A DNA stretch of 57,977 nt from Kiritimatiellales bacterium. Lineage in GTDB: Bacteria > Verrucomicrobiota > Kiritimatiellia > Kiritimatiellales > Pontiellaceae. Where the stretch lies: NCBI GenBank assembly GCA_021734345.1, contig JAIPJC010000006.1:1-57977 (forward strand), read 5' to 3'. The notes beneath the pieces were generated by a model. That model was not told the DNA's origin, ran no database searches, and saw nothing but the letters and a program-made list of their open reading frames with translations. This document shows positions 1,487 through 27,817 of the stretch, one piece after another (the first letter of the stretch is position 1; the number at the start of each line of letters is the position of its first letter). The position numbers were made by a program, and so were the translations under genes.

Positions 1487-3688
1487 ATGGACAAACCGGA
1501 CGATAAACCAAAACCGCCAAGCCGGGAAATCGGCAACGCCAACTTGTTTGCCGACGACATCGTTTTTTCCGATACGGAAAAGATCCTGTTCGAAGAGGAT
1601 CTTCAAGAGAAGAATCCGGACAGCCGCGCCAGTTTGATGGATGGCAACCCGGAAAACCGCTACACCGCCAACAAGAAGCTGAACCAAGGCGGCATGAAGG
1701 CCATTTGGGAGGTCGACGACCACCGCACCGCCCGCAAGGTGGCGATGGCGCTGATCCAGGATTCCAAGATCGCATCCGAACAGGATATCGACTCCTTCCT
1801 CTACGAGGCGCGGCTGACGGCCAATCTCCAGCACCCCAACATTATCCCGATCTACGACATTGCCCTCGACGAAAACGGCAATCCCTACTTCACCATGAAG
1901 TCGCTCAAGGGCGAAACATTGGGCGAGATCCTTAAGCAACTGCGCGCCGGCGACGCGCAATATAAAATCCGCTTCACCCGCACGCGGCTGCTCGGTATTT
2001 TCCTGAAGGTCTGCAACGCCATCGACTATGCCCACTCCAAAGGCGTCATCCATCTCGACCTCAAGCCCTCGAACGTCATTGTCGGCGACTATGGCGATGT
2101 CTACGTGCTCGACTGGGGCTTGTCCACGCTGATCACCCATCTCAACGAATACGACGGCGCGCCGGTGTCATGGCACAGCATCGACGACGTGCCGCTGGAA
2201 AACGGCCAAACCCTCACCCACTATCTCGAAAGCACGGCCAAAAGCCGGGAGCGACGCAATGTGGTGGGCGGCACGCCGGGCTACATGTCGCCGGAGCAGG
2301 CGCAGGGATCGCCGTCCGACATCGACTTCCAGACCGACGTCTACATGCTCGGCGCCATGCTCTACGAAATCCTGACATTCCAATGCCCCATCACCGGTGG
2401 CACCATCAGGGAGGTCCTGCAGAAAACCGTACGCGGTGAATTTCCAGATCCCGGAACGCGCGCACCCGAACTAAAGATCCCCGCCGCGCTCGCGGCCATC
2501 GCCTTGAAAGCCATGGCCACCGATCCGACCAGCCGCTACCCGACCGTCGCCGCGCTGATCCGCGATATCCAGAAATACCAGGACGGCTTTGCCACCAGCG
2601 CCGAAAACCCGACCTTCATCACCCACACCGCCCTGCTGGTCAAGCGCCACAAGATGGCCGTCAGTCTCATCGCCACATCCGCCGCAATCATTGCCGTGAT
2701 TTTGGTCAACAGCTTTTCCTCCATCAAGCAGAGTGAACACGTGGCCGTCGGCGCACTCGCGGCGTTGCGGGAAAAGAACGACTATATTGCGGCTACCGCC
2801 AAAAAAGTGGCACCCGACTATCTCAACCTGATGGCTCGCGAGGAGAAAGCCTTCGAGTTCGCGGCGGCCGAGCAGGCGCTCGACACCGCCCTCGCCTTTG
2901 ATCCCTCCTTCGACACGGGCTGGATGTGGAAAGGCAAGATGCTGCTCTGCCAGCAGCGGTTTTCCGAAGCATGGAAAATTCTCAGCGGCAACCACGGTTA
3001 TCCGGTACGCAACGACTCGGCCGCCCTCAACCTGGCCGATACCTATAAAGACCAACTCAAAGTTCCAGATGCTGGACTTCCCGAGCTGGTACGGGCGTTC
3101 AAAACCCACAACATGGCCGAAGGAATTCCGCGCCTGTTCTACCACCTCAACCACGGCCCCTTCGATCCCGACACACGCTTCCCGGCCATCGAAGCCTCGC
3201 TCCGGCTATTGAACCCAAAGGTTGAAAAACTCAACTTTGCCTATAAGCCTGCCAAGGACGGCGGCTGGTCAATCGACCTGCACGGCAACCCGGAACTCGA
3301 CGACATCTCGCCGTTGTGCGGGCTCGACATCCGCAGCCTCAACGCCAGCGGCATCGGATCGCCCGACCTCAGGTTGCTGACCGAAAGCGGCATGAAGGAA
3401 CTCCACCTCGCCGACACGGCGCTCAACCATTTGTTCGAGCTCGACCAGATGGCGGGGCTCGAAGCGCTTGATATCAGCAGCACGCATATCCGCAATCTGG
3501 TCAACATTGTGAAATATCCCAAGCTGACCTCGCTCGACATTAGCGGCATTGACGGCCTCGCCATCTCGCCGCAACTCGTCTGGTGCCGCAACCTGCGGAC
3601 GCTGACCGTGGCGGAAGCCTTCCGCGACGATCCCACCATCCGAACCCTCGCCAACCGCGGCGTCATCATCATCTACACGAACAACTGA
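1487..3688 (+). CDS. Membrane-anchored Ser/Thr protein kinase-like protein with LRR-like C-terminal region
   Basis: The N-terminal part (residues about 58-365) is a bacterial Hanks-type kinase fold. It has a glycine-loop-like LNQGGMKAIWEV, a catalytic loop HLDLKPSN (189-196), DWG in place of DFG (209-211) and GYMSPEQA for the APE region. The beta-3 VAxK motif reads VAMA, so the usual ATP-anchoring lysine position is Ala88; a lysine lies at 84. One membrane span follows (about 390-410). The outer part has a TPR-like stretch (about 450-500), then leucine-rich, LRR-like segments such as LEALDISSTHIRNLVNIVKY near residues 610-700. The gene is followed after one base by an ECF sigma factor, suggesting that the kinase senses an outside signal and controls that sigma factor. 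ECF-kinase pairs are known (for example EcfP/PknT in Vibrio). Kinase activity itself is uncertain because of Ala88. Confidence 0.85.
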   Translation: MDKPDDKPKPPSREIGNANLFADDIVFSDTEKILFEEDLQEKNPDSRASLMDGNPENRYTANKKLNQGGMKAIWEVDDHRTARKVAMALIQDSKIASEQDIDSFLYEARLTANLQHPNIIPIYDIALDENGNPYFTMKSLKGETLGEILKQLRAGDAQYKIRFTRTRLLGIFLKVCNAIDYAHSKGVIHLDLKPSNVIVGDYGDVYVLDWGLSTLITHLNEYDGAPVSWHSIDDVPLENGQTLTHYLESTAKSRERRNVVGGTPGYMSPEQAQGSPSDIDFQTDVYMLGAMLYEILTFQCPITGGTIREVLQKTVRGEFPDPGTRAPELKIPAALAAIALKAMATDPTSRYPTVAALIRDIQKYQDGFATSAENPTFITHTALLVKRHKMAVSLIATSAAIIAVILVNSFSSIKQSEHVAVGALAALREKNDYIAATAKKVAPDYLNLMAREEKAFEFAAAEQALDTALAFDPSFDTGWMWKGKMLLCQQRFSEAWKILSGNHGYPVRNDSAALNLADTYKDQLKVPDAGLPELVRAFKTHNMAEGIPRLFYHLNHGPFDPDTRFPAIEASLRLLNPKVEKLNFAYKPAKDGGWSIDLHGNPELDDISPLCGLDIRSLNASGIGSPDLRLLTESGMKELHLADTALNHLFELDQMAGLEALDISSTHIRNLVNIVKYPKLTSLDISGIDGLAISPQLVWCRNLRTLTVAEAFRDDPTIRTLANRGVIIIYTNN

Positions 3689-3689
3689 C

Positions 3690-4298
3690 ATGGGCGAAGA
3701 AAACTACAATCCAACGCGGGTCACCCTGCTGGCCAAGCTCAAGAAGACCGACAACGACGAAGCCTGGCTCGAATTCGAAACCATCTACCGAGGATTCATC
3801 CTCAGCCTGATCGTCCGCATGGGCATCAACCAGCAGGATGCGGAAGACATCAGCCAGGCCGTGCTGACCAAGGTGTGGCAGAAGATCGAGGATTTCGAAT
3901 ACAACGAAAACAAGGGCAAGTTCCACAACTGGCTCGCCGCCATGACCCGCAATACCGTCAAGGACTTCTTCCGCACCAAGAAAAACTTCATCACCGGCCG
4001 TGATTCCGTCGAATACCAGGAGCAATACCTCGACATCGAAGAACACGTGCTTCCCGATATCGAAAACCTCGCCCGCGAGGAATGGGTACTGCACATCACC
4101 AACCTCGCATGGGACAACATCAAGGCCGACATCTTCGAAACCAAGCGGGAGGTCTTCAAAATGGTCTCGCAGGAGGTTCCCAACAAGGAGATCGCTCAGA
4201 AGCTGGGCATCTCGGAAGTCAGCGTCCGCGTCTATAAAGCCGAGGTCTTTGAAAAAATGCGCTCCGAAATCAGTCGCCTCAATCGCGAACTCGGTTAA
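3690..4298 (+). CDS. ECF-type RNA polymerase sigma factor, kinase-linked
   Basis: The protein has 202 residues. The sigma-2 region contains GINQQDAEDISQAVLTKVWQ near residue 45, including the DAED-like motif for core binding and promoter melting. A sigma-4 helix-turn-helix lies near the C-terminus (VPNKEIAQKLGISEVSVRVY). A longer than usual linker (about residues 95-150, charged) separates the two. The ATG follows the kinase stop codon by one base, so the two are almost certainly co-transcribed and probably translationally coupled. No anti-sigma factor is adjacent, which fits regulation by phosphorylation. Targets are unknown. Confidence 0.88.
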   Translation: MGEENYNPTRVTLLAKLKKTDNDEAWLEFETIYRGFILSLIVRMGINQQDAEDISQAVLTKVWQKIEDFEYNENKGKFHNWLAAMTRNTVKDFFRTKKNFITGRDSVEYQEQYLDIEEHVLPDIENLAREEWVLHITNLAWDNIKADIFETKREVFKMVSQEVPNKEIAQKLGISEVSVRVYKAEVFEKMRSEISRLNRELG

Positions 4299-4490
4299 AA
4301 ACCCCTTGTTTTACGTCCATTTTAAAATGGGGTGAAAAAAAAACCTAAAAAAAAGCCGCTTGTGAGTAACACTCCTGCCACTACCCTCGTATTCATTAGC
4401 GAACCCAACAACTAGCAATTAAAAACGAAGCATGTGCAGCAAACCCAAGTGAACCCAAACCCAACTGTTGCCCGCTTCATTACTCCGAGC

Positions 4491-4522
4491 AAACCCCGCC
4501 CACCCAGCGGGGTTTTCTTTTT
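4491..4522 (+). terminator. Rho-independent terminator (plus strand)
   Basis: AAACCCCG pairs with CGGGGTTT around a short loop, and the second arm runs into TTTTCTTTTT. It lies about 190 bases after the sigma factor stop, so it may end that transcript or a short RNA of its own. Confidence 0.75.
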
Positions 4523-4545
4523 GCCCCCGATTAATCCCCAAACGC

Positions 4546-4571
4546 AAAAACCCCGCCATGCGGCGGGGTTT
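4546..4571 (-). terminator. Rho-independent terminator of the acyl-CoA dehydrogenase transcript
   Basis: AAACCCCGCC pairs with GGCGGGGTTT around a four-base loop. On the minus strand the stem is followed by a run of T (plus-strand AAAAA at 4546-4550). It lies 23 bases past the stop of the minus-strand dehydrogenase gene. Confidence 0.8.
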
Positions 4572-4594
4572 AATGTTTCCAAGGATTGGAAGCT

Positions 4595-5758
4595 TTAGAT
4601 GGAAGCGTATTCCTTGACGAGGGCGTTGCCGACGATATCGCGTTGGATCTGGTTGGTGCCTTCGTAGATCTGCAGGATCTTGGCGTCGCGCATCATCTTC
4701 TCGACCGGATATTCCTTCATGAAGCCGTAGCCGCCGAGGACCTGTACGGCGTCGGTGGTGACGGACATGGCGACGTCGCCCGCGTAGTATTTGCACATGG
4801 CGGAAATCTTGGAGACATCCTTCACGCCGGCGTCGAGCGTGCGGCAGGCGGCATAGGTAATAGCGCGCGCGGTTTCAACCTTGGTTGACATTTCGGCGAG
4901 CATCCAGAGTAGACCTTGGTTGGCAATGATCGGCTTGCCGAACTGTTTGCGGACCTTGGCATATTTGACGGCTTCGTCCAGCGCGCCCTGAGCAAGGCCA
5001 ACGCCCTGGGAGGCGATGCCGGGGCGGGAGACGTCGAACGTTTTCATGGCGAGCAGGAAGCCCATGCCTTCGCGGCCGATGAGGTTTTCAGCCGGAACTT
5101 CGCAATCTTCAAATACGAGTTCACGGGTGGCGGAAGCCCGGATGCCAAGCTTGTCTTCCTTCTTGCCGAAGCTGAAGCCGGGGGTGTCCTTTTCGACAAT
5201 GAAGCAGGAAACGCCGCGTGCGCCCTTGGACTTGTTGGTGACTGCGAAAACGGTGTAGATATCGGCTTCGCCGCCGTTGGTGATCCATTGCTTGGTGCCG
5301 TTGAGGACATACTTGTCGCCCTTCTTGACGGCAGTGGTCCGAATGCCGCCGGCGTCGGAACCGGCGTTGGCTTCGGTCAGTCCGAAGGCGGCCCATTTTT
5401 CGCCGGTAGCCAGTTGGGAGAGATATTTTTTCTTCTGTTCGTCGGAGCCACCGATAATGATCGGATCGGCCCCGAGGGCGTTGGCCGCAAAGGAGACGGA
5501 TACGCCGATGCAGTATTTGGACATGGTTTCGACCGCGAGGCAGAAGCCGAGGTGATCCGCGCCGAAACCGCCGTATTCCTCGGGAATGTACAGACCCATC
5601 AGATCCATCTGTGCGAGTTCCTTAAGCAGCTCGCCCGGAAAGATGCCCTTCTCGTCGAGTTCCGCGCGCACCGGAACGATGCGCTCCTTGCCGAAATCGT
5701 CGATCAGATTGACGATTTCCATTTGGTCTTCGGTAATTCCCCAGTTGATATTCCCCAT
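4595..5758 (-). CDS. Acyl-CoA dehydrogenase (short-chain/butyryl-CoA type)
   Basis: This FAD enzyme forms the alpha-beta double bond of acyl-CoA and passes electrons to ETF. Its 387 residues match the usual length. Visible family motifs are GLYIPEEYGGFGADHLGF, the FAD-binding AFGLTEANAGSDAGGI and KQWITNGGEADIYTVFAV. Near the C-terminus QVLGGYGFMKEYPVEKMMRD precedes IYEGTNQIQRDIV, which carries the catalytic glutamate. The start has AAGGAGAAGG upstream. It is last in a minus-strand group with etfB, etfA and trxB, so ETF is its likely electron acceptor. Chain-length specificity cannot be fixed from sequence. Confidence 0.93.
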   Translation of the reverse strand: MGNINWGITEDQMEIVNLIDDFGKERIVPVRAELDEKGIFPGELLKELAQMDLMGLYIPEEYGGFGADHLGFCLAVETMSKYCIGVSVSFAANALGADPIIIGGSDEQKKKYLSQLATGEKWAAFGLTEANAGSDAGGIRTTAVKKGDKYVLNGTKQWITNGGEADIYTVFAVTNKSKGARGVSCFIVEKDTPGFSFGKKEDKLGIRASATRELVFEDCEVPAENLIGREGMGFLLAMKTFDVSRPGIASQGVGLAQGALDEAVKYAKVRKQFGKPIIANQGLLWMLAEMSTKVETARAITYAACRTLDAGVKDVSKISAMCKYYAGDVAMSVTTDAVQVLGGYGFMKEYPVEKMMRDAKILQIYEGTNQIQRDIVGNALVKEYASI

Positions 5759-5816
5759 GTCCTTCTCCTTGGTTGTTTACATCCACCGGCCTCTCGGCCG
5801 AACCCTTGTTCTTTTG

Positions 5817-5877
5817 ACGGGATTTACAGGATTAATAGGATTTTATTCACCAATCCCGTTCATCCTGTGAATCCTGT
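5817..5877. repeat. Imperfect inverted repeat of ACAGGATT words between trxB and acyl-CoA dehydrogenase genes
   Basis: The left arm reads ACGGGATTTACAGGATTAAT. The right arm (5852-5877) reads back as ACAGGATTCACAGGATGAAC followed by GGGATT. Such GGATTNACAGGATT words are dispersed intergenic repeats in many bacterial genomes. No coding frame is present. Confidence 0.55.
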
Positions 5878-5886
5878 CCTAAACCA

Positions 5887-6810
5887 TTATTCTCCTTGCG
5901 CTTCGAGGAAGCGCTCGGCCTCCAGTGCGGCGGCGCAACCGGTACCGGCTGCGGTGACGGCCTGCCGATAGATCGAATCCGACACATCGCCCGCCGCGAA
6001 CACCCCTTCGATCTTGGTCTTCACGCCCTTGGCGATGAGATAGCCGGTCCCGTCCATATCGAGCTGCCCGACAAAGGCATCGGTATTCGGCTTGTGGCCG
6101 ATCGCCACAAAAAATCCGGTGCATTCGATTTCGGAAATTTCACCGGTCTTGACGTTGCGTACCCGCACGCCGGTCACTTCGCCCTTCGCCACATCAAGCA
6201 CTTCCTCGACGACCGAGTTCCATACAGCCTCCACCTTGGGGTGGGACAGCAGGCGATCGGCCATGATTTTCGAGGCGCGCAGTTCATCGCGACGATGGAT
6301 GAGTGTGACCTTGGAGCCGAAGCGGGTCAGGAACATCGCTTCTTCGCAGGCAGTATCGCCGCCACCGACCACCACGATCGGGACGTCGCGGTAGAATGCG
6401 CCATCGCACGTGGCGCAGGCGGATACGCCGCGGCCAATCAGTTTCTGTTCGGATTCGATACCGAGGTAGCGGGCGGTGGCGCCGGTGGCGATGATGACGG
6501 TCTGCGCCTCGATCACTTCGTCGTCGGTCAACGTCAGCTTGAACGGCCGGGCGGAGAGATCGGCCTTGACGACTTCGCCGAACTGGTATTTTGCACCAAA
6601 ACGCTCGGCCTGGGCGCGCATCTTCGCCATCAGGGTCGGGCCGTCGATGCCGTCCTCAAAGCCCGGATAGTTTTCGACGTCGTTGGTGGTGGTGAGCTGT
6701 CCGCCCGGCTGCATGCCCTCGATCACAAGCGGACTCAAGTTGGCGCGGGCGGTATAGATGGCGGCGGTCAAACCAGCGGCGCCGGCTCCTATGATTACTA
6801 CTTTTTCCAT
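5887..6810 (-). CDS. trxB: Thioredoxin-disulfide reductase
   Basis: This is an NADPH-dependent flavoprotein that keeps thioredoxin reduced in the cytoplasm. The 307 residues fit the low-molecular-weight type. It starts with an FAD-binding [18 protein letters not shown], has the redox-active CATC near residue 138, the NADPH motif [13 protein letters not shown], and ends with [20 protein letters not shown]. The start is preceded by AAAGGAAC. It sits between etfA and the acyl-CoA dehydrogenase gene on the same strand, each separated by about 110-130 bases of repeat-like spacer, so separate promoters are possible. Confidence 0.96.
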
Positions 6811-6827
6811 AACAGGTTCCTTTACGT

Positions 6828-6910
6828 TGGATTAATGGATAAGTGGATTACAGGATTGTCGGGGCAGTTTCAAACCACCAGTCGCTTCAATCCACGTATC
6901 CAAAAATCCA
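6828..6910. repeat. Imperfect inverted repeat upstream of trxB
   Basis: TGGATTAATGGATAAGTGGA (6828-6847) and TCCACGTATCCAAAAATCCA (6891-6910) pair over 17 of 20 positions. It fills most of the etfA-trxB spacer. Confidence 0.5.
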
Positions 6911-6923
6911 TACCTCCAGGCCT

Positions 6924-7922
6924 CTACGCCTTGGCCGCTGCGATCTGCTTCTGGAATTCGGGAACAATTTGGTGCAGGTCGCCGATGAGGCCGAAGTCGG
7001 CGACATCGAAGATGGGGGCGTTTGGATCCTTGTTGACCGCCACGATCACATCGGAACTCTGCATGCCGGCCAAGTGCTGGATGGCACCGGAAATCCCGCA
7101 GGCGACATACACGACCGGACAAACGGTTTTGCCGGTCTGCCCCACCTGGTGGTGATGTGAAATCCAACCGGCATCCACCGTGGCGCGCGACGCACCTACG
7201 GCGGCGCCAAGCTCGGAGGCAAGGTCGTAGATGATCTTGAAGTTTTCGGGTTTACCGACCCCGCGTCCACCGGAGACAATGAACTGCGCGGCATTCAGAT
7301 CGATGGTGCTGTCGGCTTCATGCACCGACTCAAGGCGGCGCATGCGTTCGGGCACACCGGAAAGGTCGACGGAATACGGCACCTGTTCGCCCGACTCGTT
7401 GTCGGAAAGCTTCGTCTTCTTGAAGACGTTGGAGCGGACGGTGGCCATCTGCGGGCGATGGTTTGGACAAATGATGGTGGCCATGATGTTGCCGCCAAAC
7501 GCCGGACGCGTCTGAAGGAGATTGCCCGCCTCGACATCGAAGTCGAGCTGCGTGCAGTCGGCGGTAAGGCCGGCATCGACCATCACGGCGACGGTCGGCG
7601 CAAGGCTGCGGCCGATGGTGGTGGCACCGTAGAGAACGATCTCCGGCCGCTTCTCGTTGATCAGCTGGGCGACGGCGCGGGCGTAGTAGTCGTTCTGGTA
7701 GTCGGCGAGCTTGGGATCGTCGATGGTGTAGACCTTCTTCGCGCCAAAGTTGTATAGCTCCTGGCAAAACGCCGCACCGTCGGCGGAAGGAAGAACCGCC
7801 GCCAGCGTGAAGCCCGCCTTTTCGGCAAGAATCTGCCCTTCGCTAAGGAGTTCGCGCACCACGCCGGCCAGCTTGCCTTCGCGTTGCTCTGCAAATACCC
7901 AAAGTTCCTTGGTTGTGCTCAT
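6924..7922 (-). CDS. etfA: Electron transfer flavoprotein alpha subunit
   Basis: This is the FAD-carrying half of ETF, which collects electrons from acyl-CoA dehydrogenases. The C-terminal FAD domain signature is clear: [20 protein letters not shown], then [20 protein letters not shown] and a final segment [20 protein letters not shown]. The 332 residues fit the family. The start codon overlaps the end of etfB by four bases (ATGA), indicating translational coupling. The acyl-CoA dehydrogenase two genes downstream is the likely partner. Confidence 0.96.
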
Positions 7923-25699: not shown

Positions 25700-27817
25700 A
25701 TGACTGGATTTGTCCTACAAAAAAAAATGGCGCTACAGATCGTCAAGACCCTTCAGAACGCTGGGTTTTCCGCGTTCTTTGCCGGCGGGTGCGTCCGGGA
25801 CGAGCTGCTCGGACGTAAACCCAAGGACTATGATGTCGCCACCAATGCCCTGCCCGACGAGGTCGAAGCCCTTTTTCCGAAAACCCTTCCAATCGGTAAA
25901 GCCTTCGGCGTGATCGCCGTCGTCGACGGCAAGGAAACTGTCGAGGTCGCCACATTCCGCAAGGAAACCGGGACGCTCGATGGCCGCCACCCCGAAACCG
26001 TCGAGTTCAGCGCCGCCAAGGAAGACGCCCTCCGGCGCGACTTCACCATCAACGGCATGTTCTACGATCCCATTGCCGGACAACTCATCGACCATGTCCA
26101 CGGCCAACGCGACCTTGAGCGTAAAATCATCGTTGCCATTGGCGATCCGTCCGAACGCTTCCGCGAGGATCACCTACGCATGCTGCGCGCTGTACGCTTT
26201 GCCCACAACCTCGGCTTTGCACTCGATCCCGGCACCGAAGAGGCCATCCGCAATATGGCCCATTTCATCACCAACATCAGCGCCGAGCGCATCGAAGCCG
26301 AACTCTCCCGCACCCTCGTCGACAGCCCCAAACCCGGCGACGCCCTCCGGCATCTGTACAACATCGGGTTGCTCCAACATATCCTGCCCGAACTTCTCCC
26401 CATGGTCGGACAGGAGCAACCGCCCCAGTTCCATCCCGAAGGCGACGTCTTCGAGCACACCATTGTCATGCTCAACCTGATGAACCAGCATGTGGGGCGG
26501 ACTTTCCAGTCTGCCCACCCGGAGGACGAGCTAGCCCAGAATCCATTCCGACCGGTGGAATACGCCGAATCCCTGCACACCACCCATCGTCGCCTGCCAC
26601 ACTGGCAGCAGGATTCCCGCATCTACTTCGTCACCTTCCGGCTCGCCGACTCCATCGCCCAGGACAAACTCAACCAGTGGAAGGATGAGCTCGAAGCCTG
26701 GAGGAAATTCCAGCCCGACCCTGGCTCCAGGAAAACCGAGAACGAGCAGGCAAGGCAATACAGGAAGAAACAGCAGGAGTGGCTCGACCAAGGGCATGGA
26801 TCCTGCCTGCTAAAAAACAAATCTCTTTCGGAAATCGTTGAGCAGGCCTTGCTTCATTTCGATGGCGAAAACTACCGGCTCGGCGACTACGTCGTCATGC
26901 CCAACCATGTGCATGCGATTGTGGCACCGGGCAAAGGGCATCCCCTCTCCAAGATTATGCAGTCGTGGAAGGGATACACGGCCCACGAAATCAACAAGCT
27001 TCTGGGAATGAAAGGAACGGTCTGGATGGACGAATCGTTCGACCATATTGTGAGGAGCGAATCCTACTTCCATAAGTTTGTTGGCTATATCCGTGAGAAT
27101 CCGATGAAAGCCAACTTGCCCGCTTCAAACTATCGACTGGGCAAGGGATCCCTCCAGTTGAACCTTGCGACAGAAGGGCAGACTGGAAAGTCTGCCCCAC
27201 ATGTGGAGGACCGGCCTGTGGAGCAGGCTTTCCAGCCTGCTCGCACCGAGGATGGGCCGTCTTTCACCCCCCGCGAACTGGCCTACACCGTTTTGCTGCA
27301 CGACGTCGGCAAGCCGCCTACCGCGCGCATCGGCCCCGGCACCGATGGCGAGCTGCGTATCCGCTTCGATGGCCACGCCACCGTCAGCGCCGAGATGGCT
27401 GAAGCAATCCTCGTCCGGCTGCGGTTTCCCAACAAGGAACGGAAACACATTGTCGAGGCCATTCATGGCCACATGCGTTTCATGGATGTACAGAAGATGC
27501 GGACGTCCAAGCTGCGGAAAATGATCGGCGCGGAAACCTTCGACCTTGAAATGGAACTGCACCGGCTCGATTGCCTTGGCTCGCACGCCATGCTCGACAA
27601 CTACGACTTTCTCCAAAACTACATGGAGGAGATGTCCAGCGAACCCATCCTGCCCGAGCCGTGGCTACGCGGCCACGATCTAATCGCCATGGGCATTACC
27701 GAGGGCAAGCTTATCGGAAAAATCCTACGGGAAGCCTACGACGCCCAGATGGAAGACCGCTTCGCCAACCGCGACGCGCTGCTGGATTGGGTGCGAGGGA
27801 TCTACAAGCCGGAATAA
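25700..27817 (+). CDS. cca: CCA-adding/poly(A) polymerase-type tRNA nucleotidyltransferase with an in-frame RAYT transposase inserted
   Basis: The 705-residue frame is a chimera. Residues 1-263 are the nucleotidyltransferase: FAGGCVRDELLGRKPKDYDV (metal Asp43, Asp45), RRDFTINGMFYDP, ERFREDHLRMLRAVRFAHNL, and the start of the HD region FEHTIVMLNLMN. Residues from about 515 resume the HD domain: ELAYTVLLHDVGKPPTARIG, HATVSAEMAEAILVRLRF and IHGHMRF. In the family these two HD parts are close together. Between them lies a complete REP-associated tyrosine transposase (about residues 286-485) with HUH motif NHVHAIV (His403, His405) and Tyr463 in YIRENPMKANL. Deleting 711 bases (237 codons) between two CATGTGG copies would give a normal 468-residue enzyme. 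Whether the fused enzyme works is unknown. Confidence 0.9.
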   Translation: MTGFVLQKKMALQIVKTLQNAGFSAFFAGGCVRDELLGRKPKDYDVATNALPDEVEALFPKTLPIGKAFGVIAVVDGKETVEVATFRKETGTLDGRHPETVEFSAAKEDALRRDFTINGMFYDPIAGQLIDHVHGQRDLERKIIVAIGDPSERFREDHLRMLRAVRFAHNLGFALDPGTEEAIRNMAHFITNISAERIEAELSRTLVDSPKPGDALRHLYNIGLLQHILPELLPMVGQEQPPQFHPEGDVFEHTIVMLNLMNQHVGRTFQSAHPEDELAQNPFRPVEYAESLHTTHRRLPHWQQDSRIYFVTFRLADSIAQDKLNQWKDELEAWRKFQPDPGSRKTENEQARQYRKKQQEWLDQGHGSCLLKNKSLSEIVEQALLHFDGENYRLGDYVVMPNHVHAIVAPGKGHPLSKIMQSWKGYTAHEINKLLGMKGTVWMDESFDHIVRSESYFHKFVGYIRENPMKANLPASNYRLGKGSLQLNLATEGQTGKSAPHVEDRPVEQAFQPARTEDGPSFTPRELAYTVLLHDVGKPPTARIGPGTDGELRIRFDGHATVSAEMAEAILVRLRFPNKERKHIVEAIHGHMRFMDVQKMRTSKLRKMIGAETFDLEMELHRLDCLGSHAMLDNYDFLQNYMEEMSSEPILPEPWLRGHDLIAMGITEGKLIGKILREAYDAQMEDRFANRDALLDWVRGIYKPE
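26489..26516. repeat. REP hairpin, left flank of the RAYT insertion
   Basis: It is a hairpin with a TTTCCAG core (GGCGGACTTTCCAGTCTGCC). It is the inverted copy of 27176-27203, with 27 of 28 bases identical. It is translated as HVGRTFQSA. Confidence 0.8.
26496..27206 (+). mobile_element. RAYT (REP-associated tyrosine transposase) element inserted in frame
   Basis: The segment carries a Y1/HUH transposase of the IS200-like TnpA-REP group. Key parts are RRLPHWQQDSRIYFVTFRLA, VVMPNHVHAIVAPGKG (HUH), GTVWMDESFDHIVRSE and VGYIRENPMKANL with the presumed catalytic Tyr. Inverted REP hairpins lie at both ends, as known for RAYT genes. The direct repeat CATGTGG occurs at 26489-26495 and 27200-27206, 711 bases apart. 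An in-frame GTG at 26555 could be the transposase's own start, without a close ribosome-binding site. No stop codon separates it from the host gene. Confidence 0.85.
27176..27203. repeat. REP hairpin, right flank of the RAYT insertion
   Basis: GGGCAGACTGGAAAGTCTGC with two more C folds on itself (GGCAGACT/AGTCTGCC). It is the inverted partner of the left-flank REP. Confidence 0.8.
27221..27242. repeat. Third REP hairpin inside the nucleotidyltransferase gene
   Basis: GAGCAGGCT-TTCC-AGCCTGCTC is a perfect nine-base-pair stem around TTCC. It is translated as EQAFQPAR and shares the TTTCCAG core with the other REPs. Confidence 0.75.

Follow-up and report, generated by a model that had tools for sequence, protein, structure and literature searches.

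A stop-free RAYT transposase in frame within a CCA tRNA nucleotidyltransferase gene as a probable intein-like passenger

Results

The window analysed here, that is the whole stretch of 57,977 nucleotides of contig JAIPJC010000006.1 from a Kiritimatiellales bacterium of the Pontiellaceae (assembly GCA_021734345.1), contains a CCA tRNA nucleotidyltransferase gene (cca) that holds a REP-associated tyrosine transposase (RAYT; REP, repetitive extragenic palindrome) together with its REP hairpins in a single open reading frame (ORF). We propose, with a probability of roughly 0.72, that the insert is a stop-free REP-RAYT-REP element which lives in frame inside host proteins as an intein-like, apparently non-splicing passenger and which would act on REPs in trans. 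A preliminary description of the window had noticed this one case, which belongs to a widespread class.

The cca frame and its insert

The ORF at 25700..27817 (+ strand) encodes 705 residues and runs without a stop through the nucleotidyltransferase, one REP hairpin, the RAYT, two further REP hairpins and the remainder of the HD domain. All 705 codons are open and Pfam recognised four domains in this one frame, namely PolyA_pol (residues 25-144), PolyA_pol_RNAbd (172-232), Y1_Tnp (390-464) and HD (529-596), which bears out the preliminary claim of a RAYT lying in frame within the gene; the head, RNA-binding and HD domains of a CCA tRNA nucleotidyltransferase follow each other in the expected order. 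The NCBIfam models for CCA/PcnB enzymes and REP_Tyr_transpos also matched, all of them under their cut-offs. The best of these, NF009814, missed the CCA equivalog cut-off with 242.7 versus 290 bits and aligned to residues 10-232 only, and the label CCA-type is therefore based on the domains and on relatives of 460 residues. The first part of cca, comprising the nucleotidyltransferase head, the RNA-binding region and the start of the HD domain (residues 1-262), lies at 25700..26485 (+; PF01743 and PF12627; relatives align over about 1-266), and the second part, with the HD remainder (LHDVGKP), the C-terminus and the stop, at 27257..27817 (+), where the alignment with the C-terminal ends of empty genes sets in at about residue 513-527. 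The in-frame insert between them, about 252 codons net, occupies 26486..27256 (+), its ends being placed by comparison with empty sites.

Within the insert, the RAYT core of 177 residues has no in-frame stop and lies at 26591..27121 (+), as delimited by an alignment of 41 cores, NF047646 and AlphaFold. It contains the histidine-hydrophobic-histidine (HUH) motif His403-Val404-His405 (26906..26914, +) and Tyr463 (27086..27088, +), which we take to be the catalytic tyrosine from its role in the RAYT family. His403, His405 and Tyr463, already described as intact, showed no variation across the 25 rows of alignment A2, and H106, H108 and Y166 were invariant in the 31 rows of alignment A1, the HUH plus tyrosine arrangement of a RAYT. 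AlphaFold modelled the RAYT block (residues 301-490) with mean predicted local distance difference test (pLDDT) values of 72-96 between flanking linkers of low confidence, so that the structure of the 705-residue protein is predicted with confidence for the RAYT part and a C-terminal stretch, and not for most of the CCA part. The best Foldseek match was 4er8_A (E 1.5e-4, TM-score 0.55 by target), in agreement with a TnpAREP fold, and the best sequence-profile match was again 4er8_A, that is TnpAREP on a REP hairpin. The window insert is accordingly grouped with RAYTs by residues, REPs and fold and not by the NF047646 cut-off of 80 bits, since it scored 64.2 bits, and 68.1 bits when the stretch was excised; L073, the copy nested in XseA, exceeds this cut-off with 80.3 bits.

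The left REP hairpin (26492..26515, +) has a GTGG foot, is translated as VGRTFQSA, matches the CCA-type pattern with 0 mismatches and forms an inverted repeat with the right inner REP (27177..27200, - strand; 0 mismatches). The right outer REP (27218..27241, +; three mismatches to the CCA-type pattern; exact CAGGCTTTCCAGCCTG) is the second half of an inverted REP pair. The arms 26489-26516 and 27176-27203 are 28 nt long and 96% complementary, and inverted REP hairpins do edge the insert as had been stated. CATGTGG is indeed present at 26489 and 27200 with a spacing of 711 bases, but these copies do not bound the insert, since CATGTGG belongs to the REP and the element; we also rejected it as a target-site duplication, because GTGG is the REP foot and the same CATGTGG junction is part of the element in other genomes. 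The proposal that removal of 711 bases would restore a 468-residue enzyme proved inaccurate, because the third REP at 27218-27241 belongs to the insert, and the cut would leave REP sequence behind rather than the ancestral loop.

Empty, REP-only and occupied sites

Between the fixed motifs of cca there are 269 residues in the window versus 10-19 in plain empty genes, the usual empty loop having 17. The insert splits the gene between conserved motifs of the HD domain, and the loop in which the preliminary description had placed the split is presumed from the variable length of this stretch in relatives rather than from a structure. An empty site, which the preliminary description had hoped to find among related genes, was present in 15 of the 28 genomes of the genus: these genes have neither a RAYT nor a recognised REP and typically show LNLMN, about ten variable residues and a form of YTPRELAYTVLLHDVGKP. 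Empty sites were counted by length and reading, and one gene counted as empty (L027, in G013) is of normal length yet holds KRDAC, a peptide also found in REP translations. Two further genomes of the genus carry REP-only alleles, with a complete inverted pair in G021 (39 residues) and one REP in G005 (23 residues). A RAYT at the same cca site was found in nine genomes other than the source genome, four of the genus (G006, where it is divided between two contigs, G009, G012 and G017), one of the family (G028) and four of another family in the same order (G029, G035, G039 and G041). Because RAYT frames occur at the same position in nine further genomes, the window frame is not a chance open reading.

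Across the genus, the cca site was read as RAYT in 5, REP only in 2 and empty in 15 genomes, with 6 not read. The corresponding numbers for exonuclease VII (XseA) are RAYT 6, REP only 5 (hairpins in G001, G014, G017 and G025; G007 by peptide only) and empty 15, with one ambiguous (G027) and one genome in which the gene was not found, and for PriA RAYT 10, REP only 4 (hairpins in G001, G004 and G005; G018 by peptide only) and empty 3, with 11 not scored. From this we conclude that three host sites exist in empty, REP-only and REP-RAYT-REP form, in frame throughout. In the cca genes L008, L009, L010 and L100 of this family, the left and right REP pairs share one translation frame (GQxGKxAPH...VxQxFQxA). 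A recombination event joining the two pairs would therefore excise the RAYT while a single pair stayed behind in frame, and the REP-only allele of G021 has the appearance of such a product; the reverse order, with the REP arriving before the RAYT, is also possible. Two neighbouring observations concern the linkers themselves: the 950-residue L100 (cca of G028) contains several consecutive in-frame repeats of the RAYT C-terminal tail plus a REP pair, and the PriA linker of G004 (L243) carries a REP with the radical-SAM-type rather than the PriA-type stem, which shows that the same PriA linker accepts REPs of different families.

Removal of the insert after transcription or translation, with a plain CCA enzyme as the mature product, would account for the tolerance of a 250-residue insert. 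We consider it very improbable: no Hint, splicing or intein domain was among the Pfam matches of the 705-residue ORF at E <= 0.01, the short in-frame peptides encoded by REP-only forms are unexplained by any splicing device, and the stretch between the fixed motifs ranges from 251 to 500 residues in RAYT-bearing cca genes.

Constraint on host and RAYT parts

For the six cca-RAYT genes of the family, Nei-Gojobori (NG86) omega was 0.081-0.167 for the N-terminal host part (CCA_N; 15 pairs), 0.105-0.197 for the RAYT (11 of 15 pairs, the other 4 being saturated) and 0.055-0.081 for the C-terminal host part (CCA_C; 10 pairs, as G006 lacks it). Synonymous divergence between the window and G012 was 0.85, 1.08 and 1.01, and host and RAYT were alike in this respect for several pairs. 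In the nests of PriA (6+2 of 10 genes), XseA (4 of 6) and the radical-SAM gene (4 of 8), omega was 0.01-0.29 where measurable, which for the RAYT applied to 8/15 and 1/1 PriA pairs, 1/6 XseA pairs and 1/6 radical-SAM pairs, all others being saturated. In every comparison printed, codon position 3 was more divergent than positions 1 and 2. Host and RAYT parts thus look constrained, with no sign of decay.

The source assembly is fragmented (176 contigs, 84.8% complete), and an assembly chimaera or a decaying pseudogene might be suspected for this reason. Both explanations, like a chance frame, can be dismissed for practical purposes: nine relatives have a RAYT at the same cca site, nests also occur in Pontiellaceae bacterium B12227, a record without a metagenome-assembly title (L157, in the radical-SAM gene, and probably a second in PriA, judging from the matching genome G016), and in the five-contig genome G021, and there are no stops and omega is low on both sides. 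The preliminary description would have counted a second intact cca or pcnB gene, together with a lack of expression of this one, against its reading; the genome does have a second nucleotidyltransferase, L005, which is of the PcnB type (TIGR01942, 389 bits; cut-off 306); no second CCA-type copy was found in the source genome, from whose 84.8% complete assembly a copy could be missing.

Nested RAYTs in the genus

When the 28 genomes of the genus were searched with the RAYT alone, 44 matches reached E <= 1e-30; host sequence accompanies 34 of them, in frames of 373-1198 residues, and the other 10 lie in frames of 207-289 residues. All 34 long frames were read, some of them ending at contig ends. 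Their hosts are CCA (5), PriA (9), XseA (6), a B12-binding radical-SAM protein (8, at two sites), MvaD (2) and CmoB (1), together with C-terminal fusions to TatD (2) and Fic (1); host models were confirmed for representatives of XseA, MvaD, PriA, radical SAM, TatD and CmoB, and the remaining hosts were assigned by reading. The source genome itself has RAYTs nested in CCA, in PriA and in a radical-SAM gene cut by the contig end, and G021 has nests in PriA and a radical-SAM gene.

Within the 40 codons preceding the core, an in-frame ATG was present in 10 of 40 nested or fused copies (three of the 40 are C-terminal fusions, and in two, L099 and L074, the frame is cut close to the core) and in 24 of 31 stand-alone copies (Fisher p 1.4e-5). 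Shine-Dalgarno-like motifs were rare before stand-alone RAYTs too (2/31) and have no discriminating power here. An own start for the nested RAYT was therefore rejected for most copies; because 30 of the 40 have no in-frame ATG close before the core, the RAYT is probably synthesised as a domain within the host protein.

Several loci of the genus deserve separate mention. In contig C50 of the source genome (L006:430-1812), the C-terminus of ThiD is fused in frame to a RAYT of a different subfamily, which scores above the NF047646 cut-off with 117 bits. L090 (G020:C137) contains two related RAYTs, the first within a radical-SAM gene and the second at the C-terminal end of Fic (hosts read by eye), at 2970-5249 and 5306-7069 in reverse-strand coordinates, which suggests a local hop. 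In-frame tandem arrays of REP peptides adjoin the RAYT nested in the radical-SAM gene in L096 and L088, where L096 has a 17-residue unit repeated about six times upstream. The RAYT core of L099 (PriA of G013) has 206 residues versus 188 in its nearest kin, and the extra stretch resembles a REP peptide inside the RAYT.

Dispersed REPs open in most frames

Each of the three nested RAYTs of the source genome has a dispersed REP family. At up to three mismatches we counted 36 matches of the CCA type, 31 of the PriA type and 24 of the radical-SAM type, with 0 control matches in each case. The RAYT lineages examined differ in the REP stem behind a GTAG, GTGG or similar foot, except that the XseA and radical-SAM stems are alike. 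All 36 CCA-type REPs are open in all six frames, 15 of the 16 distinct radical-SAM-type sequences are open in six, and all nine distinct PriA-type sequences are open in five. Since these REPs carry so few stops, an insertion whose length is a multiple of three would usually leave the host translatable.

Outside cca, 15 of the 22 clusters of CCA-type REPs lie in frame inside recognisable genes, and Pfam recognises 10 frames holding 11 of these 15 clusters, so that palindromic repeats stand in frame in many genes in the manner of Rickettsia palindromic elements (RPE). The frames read as NadE, HypE, LeuRS, Mfd, an AddB-like nuclease, HypF, RlmL and MiaA, and two more as a squalene-cyclase-like and a glutamate-synthase-like protein. 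In-frame REPs in genes are already published: the parts of PMC3733652 on intragenic REPs report them from Opitutus terrae, among others, with replication and repair genes as frequent sites, and liken them to Rickettsia elements.

Trees and history of the elements

RAYT trees were built in a quick version with 110 cores and a careful version with 37 cores; of 80 loci from named-species genomes, five repeats and six more were left out (one marked skip, the rest with a short core or no readable HUH). The CCA tree left out the truncated G006 copy, duplicate loci and L023, which was later read as empty. RAYT copies from CCA form one clade (10/10; support 94 in the quick and 87/93 in the careful tree), as do those from XseA (6/6; 90), DUF1156 (3/3; 82) and the ADH-GFO protein (2/2; 100). 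PriA RAYTs have two origins, two RAYT lineages being present in one linker; the Fic RAYT falls within the radical-SAM clade, and its gene lies near such a gene on the same contig; copies from HsdR, LeuRS and MvaD form no clades. Host labels require 37 changes on the RAYT tree versus 74 when shuffled. As RAYT copies group by host gene, many elements thus appear to be long-term residents of one site.

One insertion followed by strictly vertical descent is nevertheless insufficient for the second family (f2), in which G029 and G039 hold different RAYT lineages in closely related hosts: CCA_N is 87.5% identical and the RAYT 46.1%, the hosts cluster with G040 (99/95 in the CCA tree), and the RAYT data reject the two as sisters (approximately unbiased (AU) test, p 6e-5, for a pair picked after the tree was seen). 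REP stems track the RAYT lineage, L101 and L103 having one type and L102 and L104 another. These observations, the two RAYT lineages in the PriA linker and at least seven changes between RAYT and no RAYT on the CCA tree are what a homing passenger would produce, that is an element which is inherited but also repeatedly re-enters the same empty or REP-only site through REP homology or a preferred target. We regard this as possible but rather doubtful. The seven changes are close to the mean of 7.9 for shuffled labels, and the count says only that RAYT presence is scattered. Repeated loss or recombinational replacement would yield the same pattern, the RAYT tree within family f1 does not contradict vertical descent, and the AU test did not reject the four f2 RAYTs as a monophyletic group (p 0.126), for which reason we do not claim transfer between families.

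Occurrence beyond the genus

Named-species genomes were scanned with 31 RAYT cores (30 nested and one stand-alone) and the best 80 loci were kept, at least five of which are repeat records already counted. Frames exceeded 320 residues in 46 of these 80 loci and were shorter in 34; as the queries were nested cores, the fractions are not population estimates. Pfam placed host domains on both sides of the RAYT in 15 of 21 frames and on one side in 6, the two-sided hosts being HsdR, CarB, LeuRS, ValRS, MmeI, UxaC, SNF2, the ADH-GFO protein and a CARF-adenosine deaminase. Y1_Tnp passed 1e-6 in 14 of the 21 frames, and the RAYT assignment of the other 7 is based on tblastn. Similar nests were found in other phyla, and records without a metagenome-assembly title include Pontiellaceae bacterium B12227 (L157), Chloroflexales bacterium ZM16-3 (one side by Pfam) and Flavobacterium branchiophilum (host by eye). 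Among 194 genomes sampled from the phylum there were 106 matches at E <= 1e-30, of which 30, spread across 23 genomes, lay in frames of at least 440 residues; these counts were made by hand, and hosts were not verified individually. In 14 control genomes NF047646 matched in 6 and was above the cut-off in 1. The survey sets were selected by similarity to nested cores, and many of the genomes are fragmented.

Some hosts outside the order are defence proteins. In L144:3-2540 the RAYT is nested in a CARF-adenosine deaminase, a CRISPR-associated defence protein (PADLOC CARF5--CARF_ADA, 518 bits), and type I and type IIG restriction enzymes and HmaB are among the other nested hosts there (seven frames were scanned with PADLOC).

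The preliminary description had wavered between a passenger and a fusion that the host tolerates or uses. Because the same RAYT class occupies many unrelated genes, a passenger fits better than a custom-made fusion. That the RAYT is a domesticated partner, kept because a hairpin-binding or nicking domain helps nucleic-acid enzymes such as CCA, PriA and exonuclease VII, would agree with the several nucleic-acid enzymes among the genus hosts, with the conserved catalytic residues of the RAYT and with the preference of intragenic REPs for replication and repair genes stated in the relevant parts of PMC3733652. We judge this improbable, since the same RAYT class is found in MvaD, TatD, UxaC, an acyl-CoA synthetase (by eye) and restriction enzymes, and since empty sites are common in relatives.

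Discussion

Taken overall, the interpretation given in the preliminary description is partly supported, and we favour the non-splicing, in-frame passenger. In the source genome, the element occupies a variable stretch within the HD domain of the CCA enzyme, and translation would continue from the host through a REP-encoded linker, the RAYT and a second REP linker back into the host. The RAYT would be made as an internal domain that folds as a unit on flexible REP-encoded linkers, without stopping the host enzyme, and may nick and move REP hairpins as single strands, as is thought for TnpAREP. Insertions of a length divisible by three would usually keep the host gene translatable, and others would be purged. 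Recombination between left and right REP pairs could remove the RAYT and leave an in-frame REP pair. Residence in an indispensable gene would provide steady expression and shield the transposase against nonsense and frameshift mutations that would otherwise eliminate it, a form of intein-like persistence without splicing. On a more general level, autonomous stop-free RAYTs may constitute a class of mobile element living inside proteins, persisting as long-lived internal domains, re-entering the same sites and acting as a source of in-frame REPs; this generalisation is tentative and, in our estimate from the sequences, falls a little short of an even bet.

Several points weigh against the passenger interpretation. 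All evidence is at the level of sequence. The CCA part of the AlphaFold model has pLDDT values mostly below 50 (from an alignment three sequences deep), so that folding of the enzyme round the insert rests on conservation, and the window RAYT is under the curated NF047646 cut-off (64-68 versus 80 bits). When NF047646 was applied to 57 genomes of the class, frames of at least 440 residues made up 11 of the 150 matches listed, and most frames were short. PriA-type REPs are closed in one of six frames, where the GTAG foot supplies a TAG stop. At synonymous sites the RAYT is often saturated or more divergent than the flanks, so that a common history of host and RAYT is not established in all hosts; for the XseA and radical-SAM nests, constraint on the transposase part is deduced mainly from codon positions. 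Finally, selection against out-of-frame insertions is assumed, and the ten short-frame RAYTs of the genus may interrupt genes.

If the passenger interpretation is right, a transposase would have a route into conserved and probably indispensable genes that requires no splicing and apparently causes no breakage. This would connect two puzzles, namely the persistence of RAYTs without classical transposition and the occurrence of palindromes in frame within genes. One genome here provides an enzyme, its nest and REPs of the same type, and the same enzyme is available for direct comparison without an insert, with REPs only and with the RAYT.

Our search of the main texts of the open-access literature found no description of a RAYT that is nested in frame within a different gene, and there is none in the parts of PMC3733652 on intragenic REPs. 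According to the part of PMC6006769 that deals with this step, unexpectedly long RAYT proteins were dropped as gene fusions or annotation errors, a length filter by which such nested cases would be removed; filters of this kind throw away the phenomenon described here.

The closest known system is the RAYT or REPtron, a relative of IS200/IS605 consisting of TnpAREP with flanking REPs, which has in common with the nested elements the HUH motif and tyrosine, hairpins with a GTAG or GTGG foot, dispersed REPs, inverted pairs and the match to 4er8. REPtrons are separate genes in the text available from PMC3733652, whereas the nested RAYT lacks a stop of its own and in most cases an ATG as well, and is read as a segment of its host. 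Intragenic REPs (PMC3733652) and RPE (PMC10969869), as presented in the portions of these papers that concern them, are palindromes in frame in many unrelated genes, and the REP-only sites found here are of the same kind. Those elements are short palindromes only, whereas here the transposase itself is nested and its REP type is dispersed in the same genome. IStrons, which combine a group I intron with an insertion sequence (IS), likewise let an IS sit harmlessly in genes, as stated in the pertinent part of PMC4227781. They are spliced from RNA, whereas the harmlessness of a nested RAYT would come from keeping the frame.

Inteins are in-frame selfish inserts in conserved genes, with a DNA-cutting domain and with empty sites in relatives. 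The nested RAYTs resemble them in each of these features, but the insert appears to stay in the protein, and the DNA enzyme is a HUH transposase rather than a homing endonuclease. If the proposed interpretation is true, nested RAYTs would in effect be inteins that need no splicing.

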